7,805 bases of DNA from an uncultured Lachnospiraceae bacterium (GTDB taxonomy: Bacteria; Bacillota; Clostridia; Lachnospirales; Lachnospiraceae): contig CACZNZ010000299.1 of assembly GCA_902782625.1 (NCBI GenBank), forward strand, positions 1 through 7,805, given 5' to 3'. Numbering within the stretch: position 1 is the stretch's first letter; each line of letters begins with the position of its first letter. Made by a program: the position numbers and the translations under genes. Below, piece after piece: positions 2-7,805 of the stretch. Under the pieces are notes generated by a model. The model did no database searches. It saw only the letters and a list, made by a program, of their open reading frames with translations, and was not told the DNA's origin.

Positions 2-1024
2 ACGACCGGAAAGAGAGTCGTTGCTTTCTATACACAGGAAGACATCGATATATGGGACGAGTGCTGTGCCCGCGCTATTGTCGCTGCAGGCGGAACCAAG
101 GATGATGTGGTCCATGTCTGCTATGGATACGGACTGTTTACCGGTGGCCCCGGTTTGAACGGAGGCTCCCATATGGTGGGCAGCCTGACACTTCCGATGT
201 CTTCGGGCAATACACAAAGACAGCTCCAGTTTATGACAGATCTTGGTTCTACCATCATTTGCTGTACACCGTCTTATGCCGCCAACCTGGCAGAGTCCAT
301 CAATGAGCGTGGGCTTCGGGACAAGATTAAGCTGAAAGCCGGTATCTTCGGTGCAGAGCCATGGACAGAAGAGATGCGTCATGACATCGAAAGAAACCTT
401 GGAATCAAAGCGTATGATATCTATGGCCTGACAGAGATATCCGGTCCGGGTGTCTCCTTCGAATGTGAGGAGCAGGCGGGCATGCATATCCAGGAAGATC
501 ATTTTATCGCTGAGATCATCAATCCGGATACCGGGGAGGTTCTTCCGGACGGAGAAGTCGGGGAACTCGTGTTCACAAGTATCACGAAAAAAGCATTTCC
601 ACTTATCCGGTATCGCACCAGAGACCTTTGTTATCTTACCAGGGAGAAATGTTCCTGTGGCCGCACGCACGTGCGCATGCATAAACCGATGGGAAGAAGC
701 GATGATATGATGGTTGTCAAAGGCGTCAATGTATGGCCGTCCCAGATTGAGCAGGTACTCTTTGAGCAGGGCTATCAGGCGAACTATCAGATCGTGGTTG
801 ACCGTGTCGGCAACAATGATACCATTGAAGTTCAGGTGGAGATGACACCGGAGATGAAACTCGCCGACGATGTGAAAGTCGCAGACAGAGAGAAGAAGGT
901 TGTCAAAGGACTGAAATCCATGCTTGGCATCATGTGTGATGTCAGTGTCCTTGAACCTAAGACGATTGTAAGAAGTGAAGGAAAAGCAAAACGAGTTGTA
1001 GATAAGAGAGATCTCTACAAATAA
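2..1024 (+). CDS. paaK: Phenylacetate-CoA ligase, PaaK type (5' truncated by window edge)
   Basis: AMP-forming ligase of the ANL superfamily, expected to convert phenylacetate or a related aryl/indole acetate, ATP and CoA to the aryl-acetyl-CoA in the cytoplasm. The reading frame is already open at base 2 and 340 residues are visible. PaaK proteins are about 430 residues, so roughly 90 N-terminal residues are missing. The visible part opens inside the ATP-binding P-loop (TTGK). It then shows the PaaK-type YGYGLFTGG segment (visible residues 41-49), YGLTEISGPG (141-150), RYRTRDL (203-209), a CSCGR metal-site-like patch (217-221), the hinge region GRSDDMMVVKGVNVWP (231-246), and SEGKAKR (325-331) with the expected C-terminal catalytic lysine. 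A GTG at 107 lies inside the conserved domain and is not the start. A terminator follows within 10 bases, so this is the last gene of its transcript. Family assignment is firm; the exact aryl substrate is inferred. Confidence 0.93.
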   Translation, partial: TTGKRVVAFYTQEDIDIWDECCARAIVAAGGTKDDVVHVCYGYGLFTGGPGLNGGSHMVGSLTLPMSSGNTQRQLQFMTDLGSTIICCTPSYAANLAESINERGLRDKIKLKAGIFGAEPWTEEMRHDIERNLGIKAYDIYGLTEISGPGVSFECEEQAGMHIQEDHFIAEIINPDTGEVLPDGEVGELVFTSITKKAFPLIRYRTRDLCYLTREKCSCGRTHVRMHKPMGRSDDMMVVKGVNVWPSQIEQVLFEQGYQANYQIVVDRVGNNDTIEVQVEMTPEMKLADDVKVADREKKVVKGLKSMLGIMCDVSVLEPKTIVRSEGKAKRVVDKRDLYK

Positions 1025-1089: not shown

Positions 1090-2283
1090 CTATCGATAGG
1101 ATTTTGCTAACTTTTCGAATACATCAAGAGATCTTTCAATGCGTTCTGTCGGAACACAGAAAGAAATTCTGGTATGGCCAGGACAGCCAAAACCGGTACC
1201 CGGTACGATCAGGAGATTGTAATCAAGTTTGGCTCTTTCGCAAAAGGCAATGTCGTCGTCGATGATGGTGCGCGGGAAAATGTAGAAGGTTCCACCCGGT
1301 TCCACGACGGAATACCCCATTTCCCGCAGACCTTTGGTAAGGATGTTGCGGTTTGTCTCATAGACAGAGATATCAGAGGTATCATCCGCACAAAGAGCAC
1401 ATACCCGCTGGAACAGTGCCGGGGCACAGACATAGCCAAGGGAACGGCCGGCGCCTGCGATTGCCGCAAAGACAAGTTCATGGTCTTCCACCTCGTCCGG
1501 TACGGTTACATAACCAAGACGCTCTCCGGGAAGGGAGAGGGATTTGGACCAGGAATAACATACCAGCGTATTGTCATAATACTTAGGAAGGTAAGGCACT
1601 TCTACACCTTCAAAAGCAATCTCACGATAAGGTTCGTCTGCGATCAGATAGATTACAGAACCATAAGCTTCAGATTTTTCTTTCAGGATACGGGAAAGCT
1701 TCTTCACGGTCTCTTCCGAATAAACTGCACCGGAAGGATTGTTCGGCGAATTGACGATCACACCCTTGGTATGCTCATTGATTGCCGATTCAAATGCCTC
1801 AAAATCAATCTGGAATGCGTCCGTATCTGCCGGGATGAGTCTCATCTTTGCGCCGGCTCCTTCAATAAATACTTTGTATTCAGGGAAATATGGGGCAAAG
1901 ACAATGAATTCATCACCCGGATTTGCCAGACCGTTTAAGCAGCAGCAGAGTGCAGCAGCTGCCCCGCAGGTGATATAGAAATTGTCGGCAGAAAGATTGA
2001 CCGAAAACCTTCTGTTCAGGGAATCTGCGATCATCTGCCGTGCGGCGGCATCACCCTGTGCACTGGTGTAACCGTGCAGAAGGATCGGATCCGTTTCCTG
2101 AATGATCCGGATTGCCGTCTCATTCACACAGTCAGGTGCAGGGACACTGGGATTGCCGATGGAAAAATCAAAAACATTCTCAGCACCAACCTTCTCAGCC
2201 TGAATCTTACCGTATTCAAACAATTCACGAATCACAGAGCGCTGTGTTCCGAGATCAACCATTCTTTGGTTTAATTTCAGCAT
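1090..2283 (-). CDS. PLP-dependent aminotransferase (class I/II, aspartate aminotransferase-like)
   Basis: Complete 397-residue fold-type I aminotransferase, the usual length for class I. It moves an amino group between an amino acid and a 2-oxo acid using pyridoxal phosphate in the cytoplasm. Visible landmarks are GNP (43-45), NSPNNPSG (178-185) with the PLP-contacting Asn182, ADEPY (215-219) with Asp216 that pairs with the pyridine nitrogen and Tyr219, SWSKS (244-248) with Lys247 as the Schiff-base lysine, Arg255 in GERLGY as the phosphate-binding arginine, and Arg372 in TRISF as the substrate carboxylate arginine. A GAGGA site lies 9 bases before the ATG, and a sigma-A promoter lies just upstream. 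It converges on the arylacetate-CoA ligase gene, which would suit an aromatic amino acid substrate, but substrate cannot be decided from these motifs. Other options are aspartate or alanine-type specificity. Confidence 0.93.
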   Translation of the reverse strand: MLKLNQRMVDLGTQRSVIRELFEYGKIQAEKVGAENVFDFSIGNPSVPAPDCVNETAIRIIQETDPILLHGYTSAQGDAAARQMIADSLNRRFSVNLSADNFYITCGAAAALCCCLNGLANPGDEFIVFAPYFPEYKVFIEGAGAKMRLIPADTDAFQIDFEAFESAINEHTKGVIVNSPNNPSGAVYSEETVKKLSRILKEKSEAYGSVIYLIADEPYREIAFEGVEVPYLPKYYDNTLVCYSWSKSLSLPGERLGYVTVPDEVEDHELVFAAIAGAGRSLGYVCAPALFQRVCALCADDTSDISVYETNRNILTKGLREMGYSVVEPGGTFYIFPRTIIDDDIAFCERAKLDYNLLIVPGTGFGCPGHTRISFCVPTERIERSLDVFEKLAKSYR

Positions 2284-2373: not shown

Positions 2374-2886
2374 TCAGGCCAGGAATGTCATGCTTATAAT
2401 ACTGAGCATGGCAGATACAGTTCCTAAAAGCGCGCCCGCTGTCACATCTTTTATAAAATGCACACCACCCAGAACCCGCAGAACAGCTAATATAACGGAT
2501 CCCGCCAGGAGAAGCAGACCGATGGGCCTGTTATAGAAAAACCACAGACAGGCGATCAGAAAGATGGAAAAGACATGACGAGAAGGGAAGGACTTTCCTC
2601 TGGTATCTTTGATCAGTACCGGGGTGATGGACAAAACTTCATAGGGACGGGGTCGATTGACGATATCGCGGTAAAGTGACAGGAAAAGAAAAGATAGTCC
2701 CGGAATGATGATCGCTGCCGCAATAGTCCTGTAAGAAAAAGATTTCCGGTAAAGATAATACAGTAAGAGAGGATAAGCGGCAAATCCAAACAGTGTCAAT
2801 GCTTTGTCCGCCACACGGATCACTTTGGGAAACAGCGGATGAGCCATACAATATTCCGTGATCTTTGCATACTGTTTTTCTGTCAT
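2374..2886 (-). CDS. PAP2-family membrane phosphatase
   Basis: Integral membrane phosphatase of the PAP2/phosphatidic acid phosphatase superfamily, likely acting on a lipid phosphate or pyrophosphate such as undecaprenyl-PP or phosphatidylglycerol-P. It is 170 residues from the chosen start. Catalytic motifs, numbered from that start: R-x6-RP (Arg73 to Pro81, with Arg in place of the usual Lys), PSRH (101-104, a PSGH variant) and R-x5-H-x3-D (Arg137, His143, Asp147). Hydrophobic stretches near residues 28-46, 53-71, 106-118, 122-136 and 148-168 fit five or six membrane spans. An in-frame ATG at 2890-2892 lies only 1 base after the AAAGGAG site, while the ATG at 2884-2886 is 7 bases away, so the second is preferred. 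It is divergent from the acyl-CoA ligase operon and shares its control region. The true substrate is unknown. Confidence 0.9.
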   Translation of the reverse strand: MTEKQYAKITEYCMAHPLFPKVIRVADKALTLFGFAAYPLLLYYLYRKSFSYRTIAAAIIIPGLSFLFLSLYRDIVNRPRPYEVLSITPVLIKDTRGKSFPSRHVFSIFLIACLWFFYNRPIGLLLLAGSVILAVLRVLGGVHFIKDVTAGALLGTVSAMLSIISMTFLA

Positions 2887-2893
2887 ATCCATT

Positions 2894-2974: not shown

Positions 2975-3003
2975 TTGACTTTTCTACTATATTGTGTTAA
3001 AGT
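2975..3003 (+). promoter_or_regulatory. Sigma-A promoter of the acyl-CoA ligase/GH3 operon
   Basis: TTGACT (2975-2980, 5 of 6), a 17-base spacer, then TAAAGT (2998-3003, 4 of 6). Transcription would start near 3010, giving a leader of about 60 bases. Both an AGTAGA-type half-site and a longer inverted repeat overlap this promoter. Confidence 0.6.
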
Positions 3004-3070: not shown

Positions 3071-4705
3071 ATGCCTGTAACAGACTTACTTGAGAGAAAT
3101 CATAAATTATACGGCGATGAGGTTGCATTAGTAGAACTCAATCCGACCATGAAGGATACAAGGAAGACGACCTGGAAAGAGTTTGATCTGGTTCAGCAGA
3201 CTTCCTCCAAGCCATACCGCAGGGAGATTACCTGGAGTGTCTTTGACGAAAAGGCGAACCGTGTTGCCAATATGCTGCTGTCCCGAGGTATCAAAAGAGG
3301 AGACAGGGTAGCGATTCTGATGTTTAACTGTCTTGAGTGGCTGCCGATCTATTTCGGAATCCTCAAGACAGGTGCTATCGCTGTTCCGTTTAATTTCCGT
3401 TTTGACTCCCGTGAGATCAAGTATTGTGCTGATCTGGCCGAAGTGCATATCATCTTTTTCGGTCCGCAGTTTATCGGCAGAATCGAGTCTATCGAAGAAA
3501 AGCTTTCCCGCGGCCGGCTTTTGATCTATGTCGGAGATGGCTGTCCTACTTTCGCGGAAAGCTATCAGGAACTTGTGGCAGACTGCTCGAGTCAGCCTCC
3601 GATGGTGAGACTGGAAGAAGATGATGATGCAGCGATCTATTTCTCTTCCGGAACTACAGGATTCCCGAAAGCGATTCTCCACAACCACGAGAGCCTGCTG
3701 CAGGCGGCTCAGATGGAGCAAAAGCACCATCTGACCAACAGGGACGATGTCTTTTTATGCATTCCGCCACTCTACCATACCGGCGCTAAATTCCACTGGA
3801 TGGGCAGCCTTTGTGCAGGTAGCAAAGCGGTACTTCTTACCGGAACGACACCGGAGATCATCCTGGATGCTGTATCCAAGGAACACTGTACGATCGTCTG
3901 GCTCCTGGTGCCATGGGCACAGGATATCCTGGACAGCCTGGACAGGGGAGACCTTTCCCTGAAAGATTATGATCTGGATCAGTGGAGACTTATGCATATC
4001 GGGGCTCAGCCGGTTCCACCTTCACTGATCAAACACTGGAAAGAGTATTTCCCGCATCATGATTACGATACAAACTACGGATTATCCGAATCTACCGGAC
4101 CGGGCTGCGTCCATCTGGGATTGGAGAATACAGATAAAGTCGGTGCGATTGGCGTTCCCGGATATCGGTGGTCATGCAAGATCGTCGATGAGAACGAGAA
4201 AGAAGTCAAACAGGGGGAAGTTGGAGAACTCTGCGTGCAGGGCCCCGGTATGATGACCTGTTATTACAACGATCCGGAAGCTACTGCAGAGACGTTAAAA
4301 GACGGCTGGCTGTTTACCGGAGATATGGCGATGCAGGATGAAGACGGATTTATCTTCCTGGTAGACCGTAAAAAGGACGTCATCGTCAGTGGAGGAGAAA
4401 ATATTTACCCTGTAGAGATCGAGAATTTCCTGAGTGCATACGGGAAAGTGAAGGATGTGGCTGTTATCGGTATGCCGGATAAACGTCTGGGCGAGATCAC
4501 CGGTGCCATCATTGCGATCAAGGAGGGTATGACCTGTTCTGAGGAGGAGATTGATGATTACTGTCATGAGCTTCCTCGATATAAGAGACCGAAAAAAATA
4601 ATCTTTGCCGAAGTACCAAGAAATGCGACCGGAAAGATTGAGAAACCTGCTCTTCGCAAAAAGTACGGTGCAGAATACCTGGTAGCTCAGCAAAACAGGA
4701 GCTAA
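3071..4705 (+). CDS. AMP-forming acyl-CoA ligase (class I adenylate-forming)
   Basis: Complete 544-residue ANL-superfamily ligase that adenylates a carboxylic acid with ATP and transfers it to CoA; cytoplasmic. Motifs in order: YFSSGTTGFPK P-loop (190-200), PPLYHTGAK (232-240), YDTNYGLSES (332-341), GWLFTGD (412-418), the hinge and A8 block DRKKDVIVSGGENIYP (432-447), and ATGKIEK (519-525) with the catalytic lysine at 522. The ATG is preceded by AAAGGA at a 10-base spacing. It resembles the CaiC/long-chain-fatty-acid ligase branch rather than acetyl-CoA synthetase, so a medium-chain, branched or aryl acid is possible. An unusual feature is about 20 extra residues near the N-terminus, where a TWKEFD-like element (34-39) is followed by a second, TWSVFDEKANR (54-64). 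It is the first gene of an operon with the ParB-like and GH3 genes. Substrate unknown. Confidence 0.93.
   Translation: MPVTDLLERNHKLYGDEVALVELNPTMKDTRKTTWKEFDLVQQTSSKPYRREITWSVFDEKANRVANMLLSRGIKRGDRVAILMFNCLEWLPIYFGILKTGAIAVPFNFRFDSREIKYCADLAEVHIIFFGPQFIGRIESIEEKLSRGRLLIYVGDGCPTFAESYQELVADCSSQPPMVRLEEDDDAAIYFSSGTTGFPKAILHNHESLLQAAQMEQKHHLTNRDDVFLCIPPLYHTGAKFHWMGSLCAGSKAVLLTGTTPEIILDAVSKEHCTIVWLLVPWAQDILDSLDRGDLSLKDYDLDQWRLMHIGAQPVPPSLIKHWKEYFPHHDYDTNYGLSESTGPGCVHLGLENTDKVGAIGVPGYRWSCKIVDENEKEVKQGEVGELCVQGPGMMTCYYNDPEATAETLKDGWLFTGDMAMQDEDGFIFLVDRKKDVIVSGGENIYPVEIENFLSAYGKVKDVAVIGMPDKRLGEITGAIIAIKEGMTCSEEEIDDYCHELPRYKRPKKIIFAEVPRNATGKIEKPALRKKYGAEYLVAQQNRS
4697..4701 (+). promoter_or_regulatory. 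Ribosome binding site of the ParB/Srx-like gene, embedded in the preceding gene
   Basis: AGGAG lies within the last sense codons of the acyl-CoA ligase gene, 13 bases before the ATG at 4715. The long spacing, and its position at the upstream stop codon, suggest translational coupling and modest initiation. Confidence 0.5.
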
Positions 4706-4714
4706 AGAATAATA

Positions 4715-5089
4715 ATGAGGTACGGCAAAAGTGCATTTGATAAAATAATCAGTGAAAATCTGAAAAAGACAGAAGGACATCGGGAAGTGGTAAAAGCCGG
4801 ACTGACTGAAAGGATTGGCGTAAAGAAGGTTTCCCCTTCTATGCTGTACGTGAATCCGGATGATGAGTTTTCATTTCCTGATATCGGTCCGAGTGATTCG
4901 ATCATAGAGAACTACTGTCAGATCGCAAGGAGAAACTATGCACTGGGTATGCCGGTCTTCAGTGACCCGATCGTCGTAAACAAACTGCGGCAGGGGGGAT
5001 ACATGATTCTGAACGGGCATCACAGGTGGGCCGGCGCCACGAAAGCCCGCATTCCGAAAGTCAGGATTTCCATTGTTAATCCCGATTAA
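4715..5089 (+). CDS. Small ParB/sulfiredoxin-fold protein
   Basis: A 124-residue protein whose second half matches the ParB N-terminal/sulfiredoxin (ParB/Srx) fold: VSPSMLYVNP (39-48) as the first strand, a helix around SIIENYCQIARRN (62-74), DPIVVNK (84-90), YMILNGHHRWAGA (96-108) as the signature NGHHR nucleotide-binding loop, and a closing strand KVRISIV (115-121). No helix-turn-helix or ParB dimer domain follows, so it is not a chromosome-partition ParB. The first 35 residues are charged, helical-looking and unassigned. Proteins of this fold include DNA-binding CTPases, sulfiredoxins and the free-serine kinases SerK and SbnI. The ATG is 9 bases after the acyl-CoA ligase stop and the gene is followed 29 bases later by GH3, so it belongs to the operon. 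A small-molecule kinase or ATP-binding accessory role is inferred, not shown. Confidence 0.8.
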   Translation: MRYGKSAFDKIISENLKKTEGHREVVKAGLTERIGVKKVSPSMLYVNPDDEFSFPDIGPSDSIIENYCQIARRNYALGMPVFSDPIVVNKLRQGGYMILNGHHRWAGATKARIPKVRISIVNPD

Positions 5090-5118
5090 CTATCGCTAAG
5101 ACAGTATGGGTCGATGAG

Positions 5119-6918
5119 ATGAAAAAAACCATGGACAAAAACAAGAAAATAAGCATAAAAAAAAGAGTGAAGCATTACAGGGCTGTCCTGGGGAGAAAGA
5201 TCTATCTTCACAGAAGCAGCTCTAGAACAGCTTTCCTGATTTCCATGGGGAGAGAGACGGTCAGGGAAGTTGATTTTAACAGCAGGCAGGCAGTGATTCT
5301 GCAGCACCGGCTCCTGATGAAGCTTCTTCAGAAAAATAAAGACACAGAATTCGGAAAGAAATACGGCTTTGCCGATATCCATTCCGTAGAGGAATACAAA
5401 GACCAGGTACCATTTACCACCTATGAAGATTATTTGCCTTATATAGAGCGGATGATGGAAGGGGAAAAAAACCTCCTATGTGTCCGCAAACCAATGCATT
5501 ATGCAATCACTTCAGGCAGTGTGGGAAAAGAGAAATATATCCCGGTTTCGAAAGAGGAACTGAAGAAATATATGCATTATTCTGTCCTGATGTCTTTTGG
5601 TGTGGCTGATGAGTATTACCGCAATACCACCGGAAAAAGTGTTCCTGCCGGACCGGGACTCAATGCTGTCGAGGTGCAGGTGATTAATAATGAATCCGGT
5701 GTCAATCTAGGGGTAATATCCGGCAAGGTGATATCGGCCGTAAAAGATTACATCCCTTATCTGCTATCTTCTCCGTGGGAGGTCATCTGTCGGGAGGAAG
5801 AGATGGATATGAAGTACCTTAAGACCAGACTTGCTCTTGCTTACCGGGATCTTGCTTTCATGGATTCGGTATTTATGACAGGTCTTGTTGATCTGATGGA
5901 TTATATCAGGGACAATTATGAGATGCTTTGTAAAGATATCTATCATGGCCGTATCAATAAAAATGTGAAAGTACCCAAACATATCAGAGAATCCCTGGAA
6001 CGGAAGATTCTGCCTGACCGGGCACGTGCCAGAGATCTGATGCGGGAATTCCGCCAGGGGTTTGATACACCGATCATACCGAGAATCTGGCCGAGGATGA
6101 GCTGGATCAGCGGTATCGGAACCGGTGCATTTTCTTCCTATGCAAGACTGATGAGGAAATATACCGGAAAGAGTATTCCTTTCCACAATATGTGCTATGC
6201 AGCTTCGGAATCCTTCATGGCTGTCGCCCGCCATATGGGAGACGAGTCCTATGTACTTTTGCCTGATGGCGGTTTTTATGAGTTTATACCGGTCAGAGAT
6301 GAAGAAGGAAGCCGGACATTTACCATAGAAGAACTGGAAATAGGAGAGGAATATGAGATCATCGTAACCAACCTTTCCGGTTTCTATCGGTACAGACTTT
6401 ATGATGTGGTACGGGTGACGGGCTATTACAATGAGACTCCGCTTCTGCAGTTTATATATCGGAAAGATCAGCTTTTGTCCATCAATGGAGAAAAAACCAG
6501 TGGTGCTGCTATCCGCTGGGCAGTGGAGCGATTCTCCAGAGAAGCAAAGATTTTTATAACGGATTACAGCGTCTATCCCGATACGGACAGTTCCCCGGGA
6601 TTCTATGTGATTTTGATGGAACCGGAAAAAACAGTGCCAAAAGACTATATCCCCTACTGCAGGGATTTGATGGAAGCCTGCCTGATGCAGGCCAATCCCA
6701 CTTATGGCGATATGGTCCGTAAAGGACATCTACGTCCTTTGGAGATTGTTTTTTTACAGCAGCAGACATATCAGCTTTACAGAGAAGTGATGATCATGAG
6801 AGGAGCTTCCTTCAATCAGCTTAAACCGGTAGATTTGATTGACACTCCGTTTCAGAAGAAATTTTTCTTTGGATTAAAAGAAGATTATTCAGAATTTGAT
6901 TCTGATCATAACGAATAA
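5119..6918 (+). CDS. GH3-family acyl-acid amido synthetase
   Basis: 599 residues, typical for the GH3 family. Characterised plant members (JAR1, auxin-conjugating GH3s) adenylate a carboxylic acid and then form an amide with an amino acid; bacterial members are poorly understood. Visible motifs: the ATP P-loop TSGSVGKEKYIP (131-142), CYAASES (359-365), FYEFIPV (386-392), NLSGFYRYRLYDVV (418-431), followed by VTGYYNETPLLQFIYRKDQL (433-452) and LSINGEKTS (453-461), closely parallel to the JAR1 region, and a C-terminal NQLKPVDLI (566-574) like the plant NQYKTPR end. The glycine normally before the motif aspartate (RLGDVV) is Tyr428 here. The basic N-terminus has no signal peptide, so the enzyme is cytoplasmic. 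The start has only a weak ribosome site (GATGAG); ATG 5131 is an alternative. The frame has a stop at 5077-5079 and no upstream start. It is the last gene of the operon. Substrates unknown. Confidence 0.9.
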   Translation: MKKTMDKNKKISIKKRVKHYRAVLGRKIYLHRSSSRTAFLISMGRETVREVDFNSRQAVILQHRLLMKLLQKNKDTEFGKKYGFADIHSVEEYKDQVPFTTYEDYLPYIERMMEGEKNLLCVRKPMHYAITSGSVGKEKYIPVSKEELKKYMHYSVLMSFGVADEYYRNTTGKSVPAGPGLNAVEVQVINNESGVNLGVISGKVISAVKDYIPYLLSSPWEVICREEEMDMKYLKTRLALAYRDLAFMDSVFMTGLVDLMDYIRDNYEMLCKDIYHGRINKNVKVPKHIRESLERKILPDRARARDLMREFRQGFDTPIIPRIWPRMSWISGIGTGAFSSYARLMRKYTGKSIPFHNMCYAASESFMAVARHMGDESYVLLPDGGFYEFIPVRDEEGSRTFTIEELEIGEEYEIIVTNLSGFYRYRLYDVVRVTGYYNETPLLQFIYRKDQLLSINGEKTSGAAIRWAVERFSREAKIFITDYSVYPDTDSSPGFYVILMEPEKTVPKDYIPYCRDLMEACLMQANPTYGDMVRKGHLRPLEIVFLQQQTYQLYREVMIMRGASFNQLKPVDLIDTPFQKKFFFGLKEDYSEFDSDHNE

Positions 6919-6930
6919 TTGCATTAAAAC

Positions 6931-6985
6931 AAGCCTCTTTCCAATCATCTCCAAGAAGCAGGAGCCGATGGGCAGAGGCTTTTTT
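6931..6985 (+). terminator. Intrinsic terminator of the acyl-CoA ligase/GH3 operon
   Basis: AAGCCTCT (6931-6938) pairs with AGAGGCTT (6974-6981), followed by a T run to 6985. Inside the loop, CTCC and GGAG can extend the stem. It begins 12 bases after the GH3 stop codon and defines the operon end. Confidence 0.88.
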
Positions 6986-7074: not shown

Positions 7075-7805
7075 ATGAATTTAAGAAAACGGTATCTTGC
7101 AGGAAAGGGGATTTTGCGGAGCATTCTTTTTGCGATGGTTCTTGCCGGTGCATGCCTGAGTCTGCATGCGGAAGCTGAGGCAAAGACAATCTATACTAAG
7201 AGAAGTACCCTTCCCGCTGATACGCCGGAAGACGTGGTCCGGGTGACGATCAATACGAAAAAAGGGAAAAGAAACTTTCGTATTTTCGGACAGAAGAAGG
7301 CTACGGTAAAAAAAGACACTTATATTTCCGTGCATGGCTGCGCGGTTAGTTCTCTGACAACCGTGCTGAGCGGATTCAGTAAAACCTACCGTAACTATAC
7401 CCCTTACAAGACGTGCACACGACTTGAAAAAAAGGTGCTGAAAGGGGCCTGGAAAAACAACTACCGCAAGTCGCTGCTGAACAAAATGCCAATCTCGCTA
7501 TACGGGATCACCAGAGTGTTAAAATATGCAGGAATCAATTCTACATATGTCAGGGCAAGCAGGAATAAGACAGCGGCTGCAAGGATCAAAAGTCATTTAA
7601 GAAGGGGTAAGCCCGTCATCATAGAATTAAATAACCACAAGCAGATCAACGGACATGTTTCAAGGGCATATACCAGCCGCTGGGCTCTCAGCAAACATAC
7701 AGTAGTGTTGCTTGGCCTGACTGAAAAAGGGAGAGTGATTGTTGCGGATTCTGCCTACCGTGCGTGGGCCGGAGAGGACCAGCGGATCAAATATACCAGT
7801 GCAGA
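7075..7805 (+). CDS. Secreted C39-like cysteine peptidase (3' truncated by window edge)
   Basis: The frame is open from the ATG at 7075 to the window end, giving 243 residues. A very strong AAGGAGGAG site (7061-7069) precedes the start by 5 bases. The N-terminus is a signal peptide: basic MNLRKR, a hydrophobic core (about 13-30) and AEAEA-KT as the probable signal peptidase I site near residue 36. The mature part matches the Peptidase_C39_2 group of papain-fold enzymes: HGCAVSSLTTVLSGF (87-101) with nucleophile Cys89, RRGKPVIIELNN (176-187), and KHTVVLLGLTEKGRVIVADS (207-226) with His208 and Asp225 as the likely remaining catalytic residues. The product should act at or outside the cell surface. 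Its target is unknown; it lacks the ABC-transporter context of bacteriocin-processing C39 domains. It is a separate transcription unit from the GH3 operon. Confidence 0.82.
   Translation, partial: MNLRKRYLAGKGILRSILFAMVLAGACLSLHAEAEAKTIYTKRSTLPADTPEDVVRVTINTKKGKRNFRIFGQKKATVKKDTYISVHGCAVSSLTTVLSGFSKTYRNYTPYKTCTRLEKKVLKGAWKNNYRKSLLNKMPISLYGITRVLKYAGINSTYVRASRNKTAAARIKSHLRRGKPVIIELNNHKQINGHVSRAYTSRWALSKHTVVLLGLTEKGRVIVADSAYRAWAGEDQRIKYTSA

Follow-up and report, generated by a model that had tools for sequence, protein, structure and literature searches.

The 7,805-base window analyzed here, which is the entire contig CACZNZ010000299.1 (C299) of a fragmented genome from an uncultured Lachnospiraceae bacterium (2.84 Mb in 639 contigs; completeness 76%, contamination 5.2%), encodes a predicted ParB/sulfiredoxin (Srx)-fold protein and, directly after it, a GH3-family enzyme, with an acyl-coenzyme A (CoA) ligase gene in front of both. 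The conserved unit is the ParB/Srx-fold gene followed by the GH3 gene, not the trio. From the order of the genes, their motifs, the repeated occurrence of ParB next to GH3, the close co-occurrence of a predicted HAD phosphatase gene (about 165 amino acids), and the fusion of ParB and HAD domains in relatives, we propose, as a tentative reading that in our judgment falls just short of probable, that the GH3 enzyme makes an amide while the ParB-fold and HAD proteins add or remove phosphate on the substrate, the product, or the enzyme.

Conservation of the ParB-GH3 pair

GTDB genomes were scanned using 30 GH3 relatives, which yielded 51 loci; the named close relatives of the window GH3 were from Lachnospiraceae. 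Nine of the 51 loci encoded a GH3 with at least 60% identity, and a ParB gene lay immediately upstream in all eight of these for which upstream sequence was available (L035 shows only the C-terminal end of ParB, and in L032 the ParB match is split over two frames). The ninth close locus, L038, begins within GH3, and another contig of the same genome carries, at its edge, ParB followed by the 5' end of GH3 (L190). An additional genome, G120, has a complete locus, and overall the pair recurs in ten genomes besides that of the window (11 in all). No ParB match was found at the 41 more distant GH3 loci having at least 797 bases upstream (there were 42 more distant loci, of which L059 was too short). 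In the GH3 phylogeny, from which the fragments L059, L063 (too short), L073, L074, L077, and L078 were removed, the nine rows with ParB and L038 formed a single clade of 10 with 100/100 support.

The distribution of the pair is narrow. The window's genome is the only one of 24 genomes of its genus in which it was found; one genus-mate, G411, has a different GH3 with no ParB adjoining. ParB-domain matches at E ≤ 1e-8 were detected in 6 of 391 class-level genomes, the window's included, and those beyond the family were a HAD fusion in G597 and an RHS protein in G778. With every case falling within one GH3 clade, and with L037 and G120 having flanking genes in common, the adjacency could also reflect a single chance insertion of ParB before GH3 in the clade ancestor, kept by descent and without functional meaning. 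We consider this very unlikely, because the adjacency has been kept while the flanks differ among most of these genomes and GH3 identity drops to 60%, and because the HAD gene is present in 10 of the 11 genomes with the pair.

The acyl-CoA ligase has a distribution of its own. It was detected at E ≤ 1e-150 in 19 of the 24 genus genomes, and among the 120 best database matches listed, all were 86 to 90% identical. A homologue of the window's aminotransferase adjoins the ligase in 15 of 18 other genus genomes. A six-frame search of up to 1.5 kb on either side of the 18 other ligase loci found no ParB, GH3, or HAD match (two of these stretches, L127 and L131, stop within about 210 bases past the ligase), and a ligase homologue was absent from all nine other ParB-GH3 loci having sequence 5' of ParB (L031 to L034, L036, L037, L063, G120, and L190). 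The ligase is thus a separate genus core gene and a bystander to the pair, which sits behind it in this species and may share its promoter.

The sequence-only reading had placed the three genes, their coordinates, and their gaps correctly (9 bases between ligase and ParB and 29 between ParB and GH3, all on one strand), had grouped them as one operon, and had named conservation of the three-gene order beforehand as a test of that grouping. The order is not conserved, with the pair at 0 of the 18 other ligase loci and the ligase at none of the nine other pair loci. The ParB-GH3 link stands (8/8 close relatives), and the inclusion of the ligase is not supported. A three-gene pathway to a single acyl or aryl amino acid conjugate would fit the tight same-strand spacing, the single promoter and terminator candidates, and the presence of PaaK-like and aminotransferase genes on the same contig, but these reciprocal absences leave it highly improbable.

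The window's features are collected in Table 1. The terminator candidate was not listed by the hairpin scan, whose loop limit is 8 bases. Contamination of this metagenome-assembled contig is unlikely because the ligase is 82 to 91% identical to those of genus-mates and the aminotransferase-ligase neighborhood is the same in 15/18. The PAP2 gene sits between the aminotransferase and the ligase; in most genus-mates seen, those two genes are closer, with none listed between them. As a candidate homologue of the HAD gene, the PAP2 gene was rejected, the HAD profile having given no match to it. Conjugation of phenylacetate or indoleacetate (plant-hormone-like), suggested by the nearby PaaK-like and aminotransferase genes, was dropped because genus-mates ordinarily have the aminotransferase next to the ligase, and at least one of them (L131) also has a PaaK-like stretch nearby.

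Table 1. Features of the window, and examples of the small gene c22 in other loci (coordinates prefixed by the locus)
Feature	Coordinates	Strand	Basis
Phenylacetate-CoA-ligase-like (PaaK) gene, truncated	2-1024	+	family models
Aminotransferase	1090-2283	-	family models
PAP2 phosphatase-like gene	2374-2892	-	family models
Sigma-70-like promoter candidate, 5' of ligase	2975-3003	+	9/12 matches
Acyl-CoA ligase, PRK06187-like (below that model's cut-off)	3071-4705	+	genus core gene
Predicted ParB/sulfiredoxin-fold protein, 124 amino acids, predicted nucleoside triphosphate binder	4715-5089	+	motifs NPxDEF, GP, NGHHRW
GH3-family enzyme, 599 amino acids, predicted ATP-dependent amide synthetase	5119-6918	+	Pfam, structures, motifs
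Terminator-like hairpin and T run, 3' of GH3 (candidate)	6933-6985	+
C39-like peptidase gene, truncated	7075-7803	+
c22 example	L033:3153-3491
c22 example	L037:9035-9373
c22 example	L136:9201-9602
c22 example	L190:3872-4294
c22 example	L191:2249-2629

The GH3 enzyme and the ParB-fold protein

All three Pfam GH3 domains (N-terminal, central, and C-terminal) were present in the window GH3, with scores of 251.7 (PF03321), 88.5 (PF23571), and 68.3 bits (PF23572) against a cut-off of 23.6 bits each. GH3 enzymes are best known from plants, and structures of the acyl acid amido synthetases found there (JAR1, GH3.8, and GH3.12), which have the same three domains, matched the window GH3 over nearly the full length, with E values from 3.5e-58 (e.g., 7dk8) to 5e-45. 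The three ATP-binding motifs, taken as listed in the excerpted text of PMC12493201, are intact (TSGSVGKEK, YAASE, and GFYRYRLYD), the hinge reads YRKDQLLSINGEKT, and the key positions of motifs and hinge were invariant across 30 aligned rows, the query included. These sequence features suggest that the window GH3 is probably an amide synthetase, for which N-acyl or aryl amino acid chemistry is plausible. It differs from the plant enzymes in being bacterial and in being paired with a ParB-fold gene.

The nearest characterized bacterial parallel is OlsH of the planctomycete Singulisphaera acidiphila, a lyso-ornithine lipid synthetase that uses free fatty acid, ATP, and ornithine and whose function was reported in 2025 (PMC12493201, excerpted text), proof that a GH3 from a bacterium is able to form an N-acyl amino acid. 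According to the same excerpts, GH3 enzymes including OlsH activate a free acid with ATP and then transfer it to an amine; OlsH, like the window GH3, is bacterial, has the three ATP-binding motifs, and belongs to a small operon, and the homologues of OlsH in other groups are left open. The window GH3 is not an OlsH by family model, scoring 110.5 bits on NF052613 against a cut-off of 620. The OlsH operon also encodes the alpha/beta-hydrolase OlsI and OlsG (PMC12493201, excerpted text), whereas no OlsI- or OlsG-like gene was found among the seven window genes scanned, and the window GH3 has a ParB/Srx-fold partner and the HAD satellite instead.

The ParB-fold protein is predicted to adopt the ParB/Srx (ParB-CTPase) nucleotide-binding fold, in agreement with both the SerK/SbnI and the ParB groups. 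Its closest sequence matches among solved structures belong to the SerK group (1vk1, 4.8e-5; 5x0b, 1.2e-4), and the free serine kinase SbnI has a role in making staphyloferrin B (PMC9641203, excerpted text), so a SerK/SbnI-like kinase that provides GH3 with its amine in the form of a phosphorylated amino acid comes into question. However, the protein has half the length of SerK (124 versus 242 amino acids) and scored 19.3 bits on the NCBIfam SerK model NF053625, below the cut-off of 380. Moreover, Asp58 in the DGxHR motif is required for SbnI activity (PMC9641203, excerpted text), and in 52/52 relatives (42/42 rows of alignment A2 and 10/10 of A5) Asn replaces it, the NGHHR motif being family-wide; the two positions were equated by our own count along the SbnI alignment, with a 2-residue tag allowed for. 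This substitution therefore disfavors a SerK/SbnI-type kinase step; the plain free-serine kinase role that had been suggested from the sequence alone appears weakened, and we regard the kinase alternative as quite unlikely. The acidic pair D50/E51, which is invariant in the aligned relatives, could be a catalytic site; sequence alignment does not place SerK Glu30, the residue mutated in the solved structures, on this pair.

The protein also resembles ParB-CTPase fold proteins surveyed in PNAS in 2025, with which it has in common a nucleotide-binding fold in a short stand-alone form (PMC12704722, excerpted text). A serious rival to our proposal is that it acts as a nucleoside triphosphate (NTP)-dependent switch, either gating GH3 or serving it as a scaffold and doing likewise for HAD in relatives, with no metabolite chemistry of its own. 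The window protein differs from known ParB switches and partition proteins in having no helix-turn-helix and no C-terminal dimerization domain, stopping 20 residues past the GHHR motif, and the invariant D50/E51 pair, as a possible catalytic site, also speaks against a switch. The C-termini of polymorphic toxins carry effector domains, and RHS-type proteins (L092, L093, and L186) have the same ParB-type domain at their C-terminus. Nuclease or phosphotransfer activity was earlier proposed for ParB toxin domains (PMC3482391, excerpted text). Together, the RHS-terminal position and that proposal hint that the ParB domain may be a stand-alone enzyme, and we therefore view the switch as credible though somewhat unlikely.

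Two other contexts were rejected. PHROGs gave only general ParB-like matches for the ParB-fold protein and weak ones for HAD (polynucleotide kinase and phosphoheptose isomerase), and no PADLOC match at E ≤ 0.01 was obtained for ParB, GH3, HAD, one ParB-HAD fusion, or c22, so that neither a phage nor a defense-system reading was retained.

The HAD partner and the proposed phosphate chemistry

The HAD gene lies close to 5 of the first 8 ParB-GH3 loci and to that of G120; in the L038 and L063 genomes, where the pair is broken, it adjoins the broken ends. This places it near the pair in 8/11. Across the family, a ParB match of at least 100 bits was found in 12 of 397 genomes; two of these were RHS proteins (G009 and G131) and were left out of the count, and the remaining 10/10 all had a HAD match of at least 200 bits, a level reached in 12 of the 397 genomes overall (hypergeometric value 2.8e-18, kinship ignored). 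The association extends to GH3 relatives: 47 genomes lie behind 48 of the 51 loci (L074, L077, and L078 not included), and without the eight pair genomes and the L038 and L059 genomes, 37 are left, ten of which carried the HAD gene; among family genomes lacking a strong GH3, the figure was 5 of 276 (Fisher 3e-7, kinship ignored). The HAD protein has the DxD nucleophile motif and falls within the HAD fold by prediction. PF00702 matched 13 of 18 HAD members at E ≤ 1 (best 0.0021); the copy in the window's genome scored 15.1 bits, below the cut-off of 26.4.

In relatives (L137 to L146, L184, and L185), a ParB domain followed by a divergent HAD domain forms one fused protein, with no GH3 adjoining. 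Of the 12 fusion loci examined, 10, L185 included, have a lone HAD gene next to the fusion; the exceptions are G307, where the lone HAD gene is on another contig, and L184, where none was seen within 1.5 kb. In the ParB phylogeny the fused and GH3-linked forms are separate (94/89; 100% of 200 bootstrap trees). A small gene of 112 to 140 amino acids that matches no known family, c22 (Table 1), was found no more than 0.7 kb from the HAD gene in all 11 genomes that have it; 48 genomes were searched, and two of the 11, G307 and the genome of L053, have identical coordinates and are probably the same. No c22 match was found in the window's genome, and an open reading frame at positions 8483 to 9151 of L031 proved unrelated and was removed from the c22 alignment.

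ParB occurs together with HAD, either in one protein or as a neighboring gene, and, within a single clade, with GH3; the simplest theme common to these settings is phosphate chemistry centered on the nucleotide-binding partner that they share. Under our proposal, GH3 would adenylate a free acid with ATP and pass the acyl group to an amine without CoA, by analogy with OlsH and the plant enzymes; the ParB-fold protein would bind an NTP and either transfer its phosphate or hydrolyze it; and the HAD protein would reverse the ParB-fold step by taking the phosphate off. A more specific version, which we consider unlikely, is a phosphate-gated amide synthetase, in which the phosphate needed by GH3 on its substrate or product is set by a ParB-fold phosphotransferase and removed by HAD, and in which the fused HAD partner found elsewhere has been swapped for GH3.

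Several observations weigh against the proposed phosphate chemistry. The HAD gene of the window's genome is on a separate contig, C538, and that of G420 (L032) is likewise on another contig, away from the pair; G423 (L035) has ParB-GH3 with no HAD match in the genome, and in G226 ParB is matched in part (73.7 bits, at a contig edge) and HAD not at all. Both G683 and G307 carry the fusion without a lone HAD gene adjoining. The co-occurrence statistics are inflated by kinship, the pair is confined to one GH3 clade, and the family-wide Asn described above departs from the kinase motif. Finally, the HAD structure model, which was built from the five-row alignment A3 only, is moderate (predicted local distance difference test score, pLDDT, 66).

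Wider GH3 neighborhoods and biological meaning

More distant GH3s (42 to 56% identity) were seen in apparent small biosynthetic clusters, whose neighbors were assigned by checking one representative per protein cluster against Pfam or NCBIfam. L045, L048, and L055 each have two GH3s together with a PGA_cap protein and a pair of ABC half-transporters. In L044, L052, and L053, the GH3 neighbors are a gene for a RimK ATP-grasp enzyme, a pair of ABC genes, and another, long GH3; in L052, the locus checked, that long GH3 is a RimK-GH3 fusion. GH3 is accompanied in L068, L071, L080, and L081 by a pair of ABC genes and a non-ribosomal synthetase of the A-T-C type, as are the two GH3s of L069. In L057, the gene 3' of GH3 (9661-10812, above the NF040521 cut-off) encodes a C45-type autoproteolytic acyltransferase/hydrolase, and L072 has a gene of the same protein cluster in that position. 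STAS and/or SpoIIE-type genes (one representative each checked) are next to or near GH3 in L041, L042, L048, L051, L060, L061, and L064 to L067; such proteins are partner-switching regulators. The apparent biosynthetic clusters support small-molecule biosynthesis as a general role of GH3. Such biosynthetic neighbors were absent around the window-clade GH3s in the stretches seen.

In our searches of the open-licence PMC literature we found no description of a ParB fold beside an amide synthetase or fused to HAD, and no paper in which "GH3 family" appears together with "ParB." The main text of the ParB-fold survey, as excerpted, makes no mention of GH3 or phosphatase partners, "had" occurring solely as a verb (PMC12704722).

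These results place the ParB fold in two kinds of gene set, beside an amide synthetase and fused to HAD. They also give a Firmicutes branch of GH3 a genetic signature of its own, a ParB/Srx-fold partner and a HAD phosphatase, so that the question of what these GH3s produce becomes testable. The ParB-GH3 pair, often with the HAD gene, could mark an unrecognized small-molecule route, and a phosphate-gated amide synthetase, if true, would mean that Lachnospiraceae make amide-linked metabolites of a new class.

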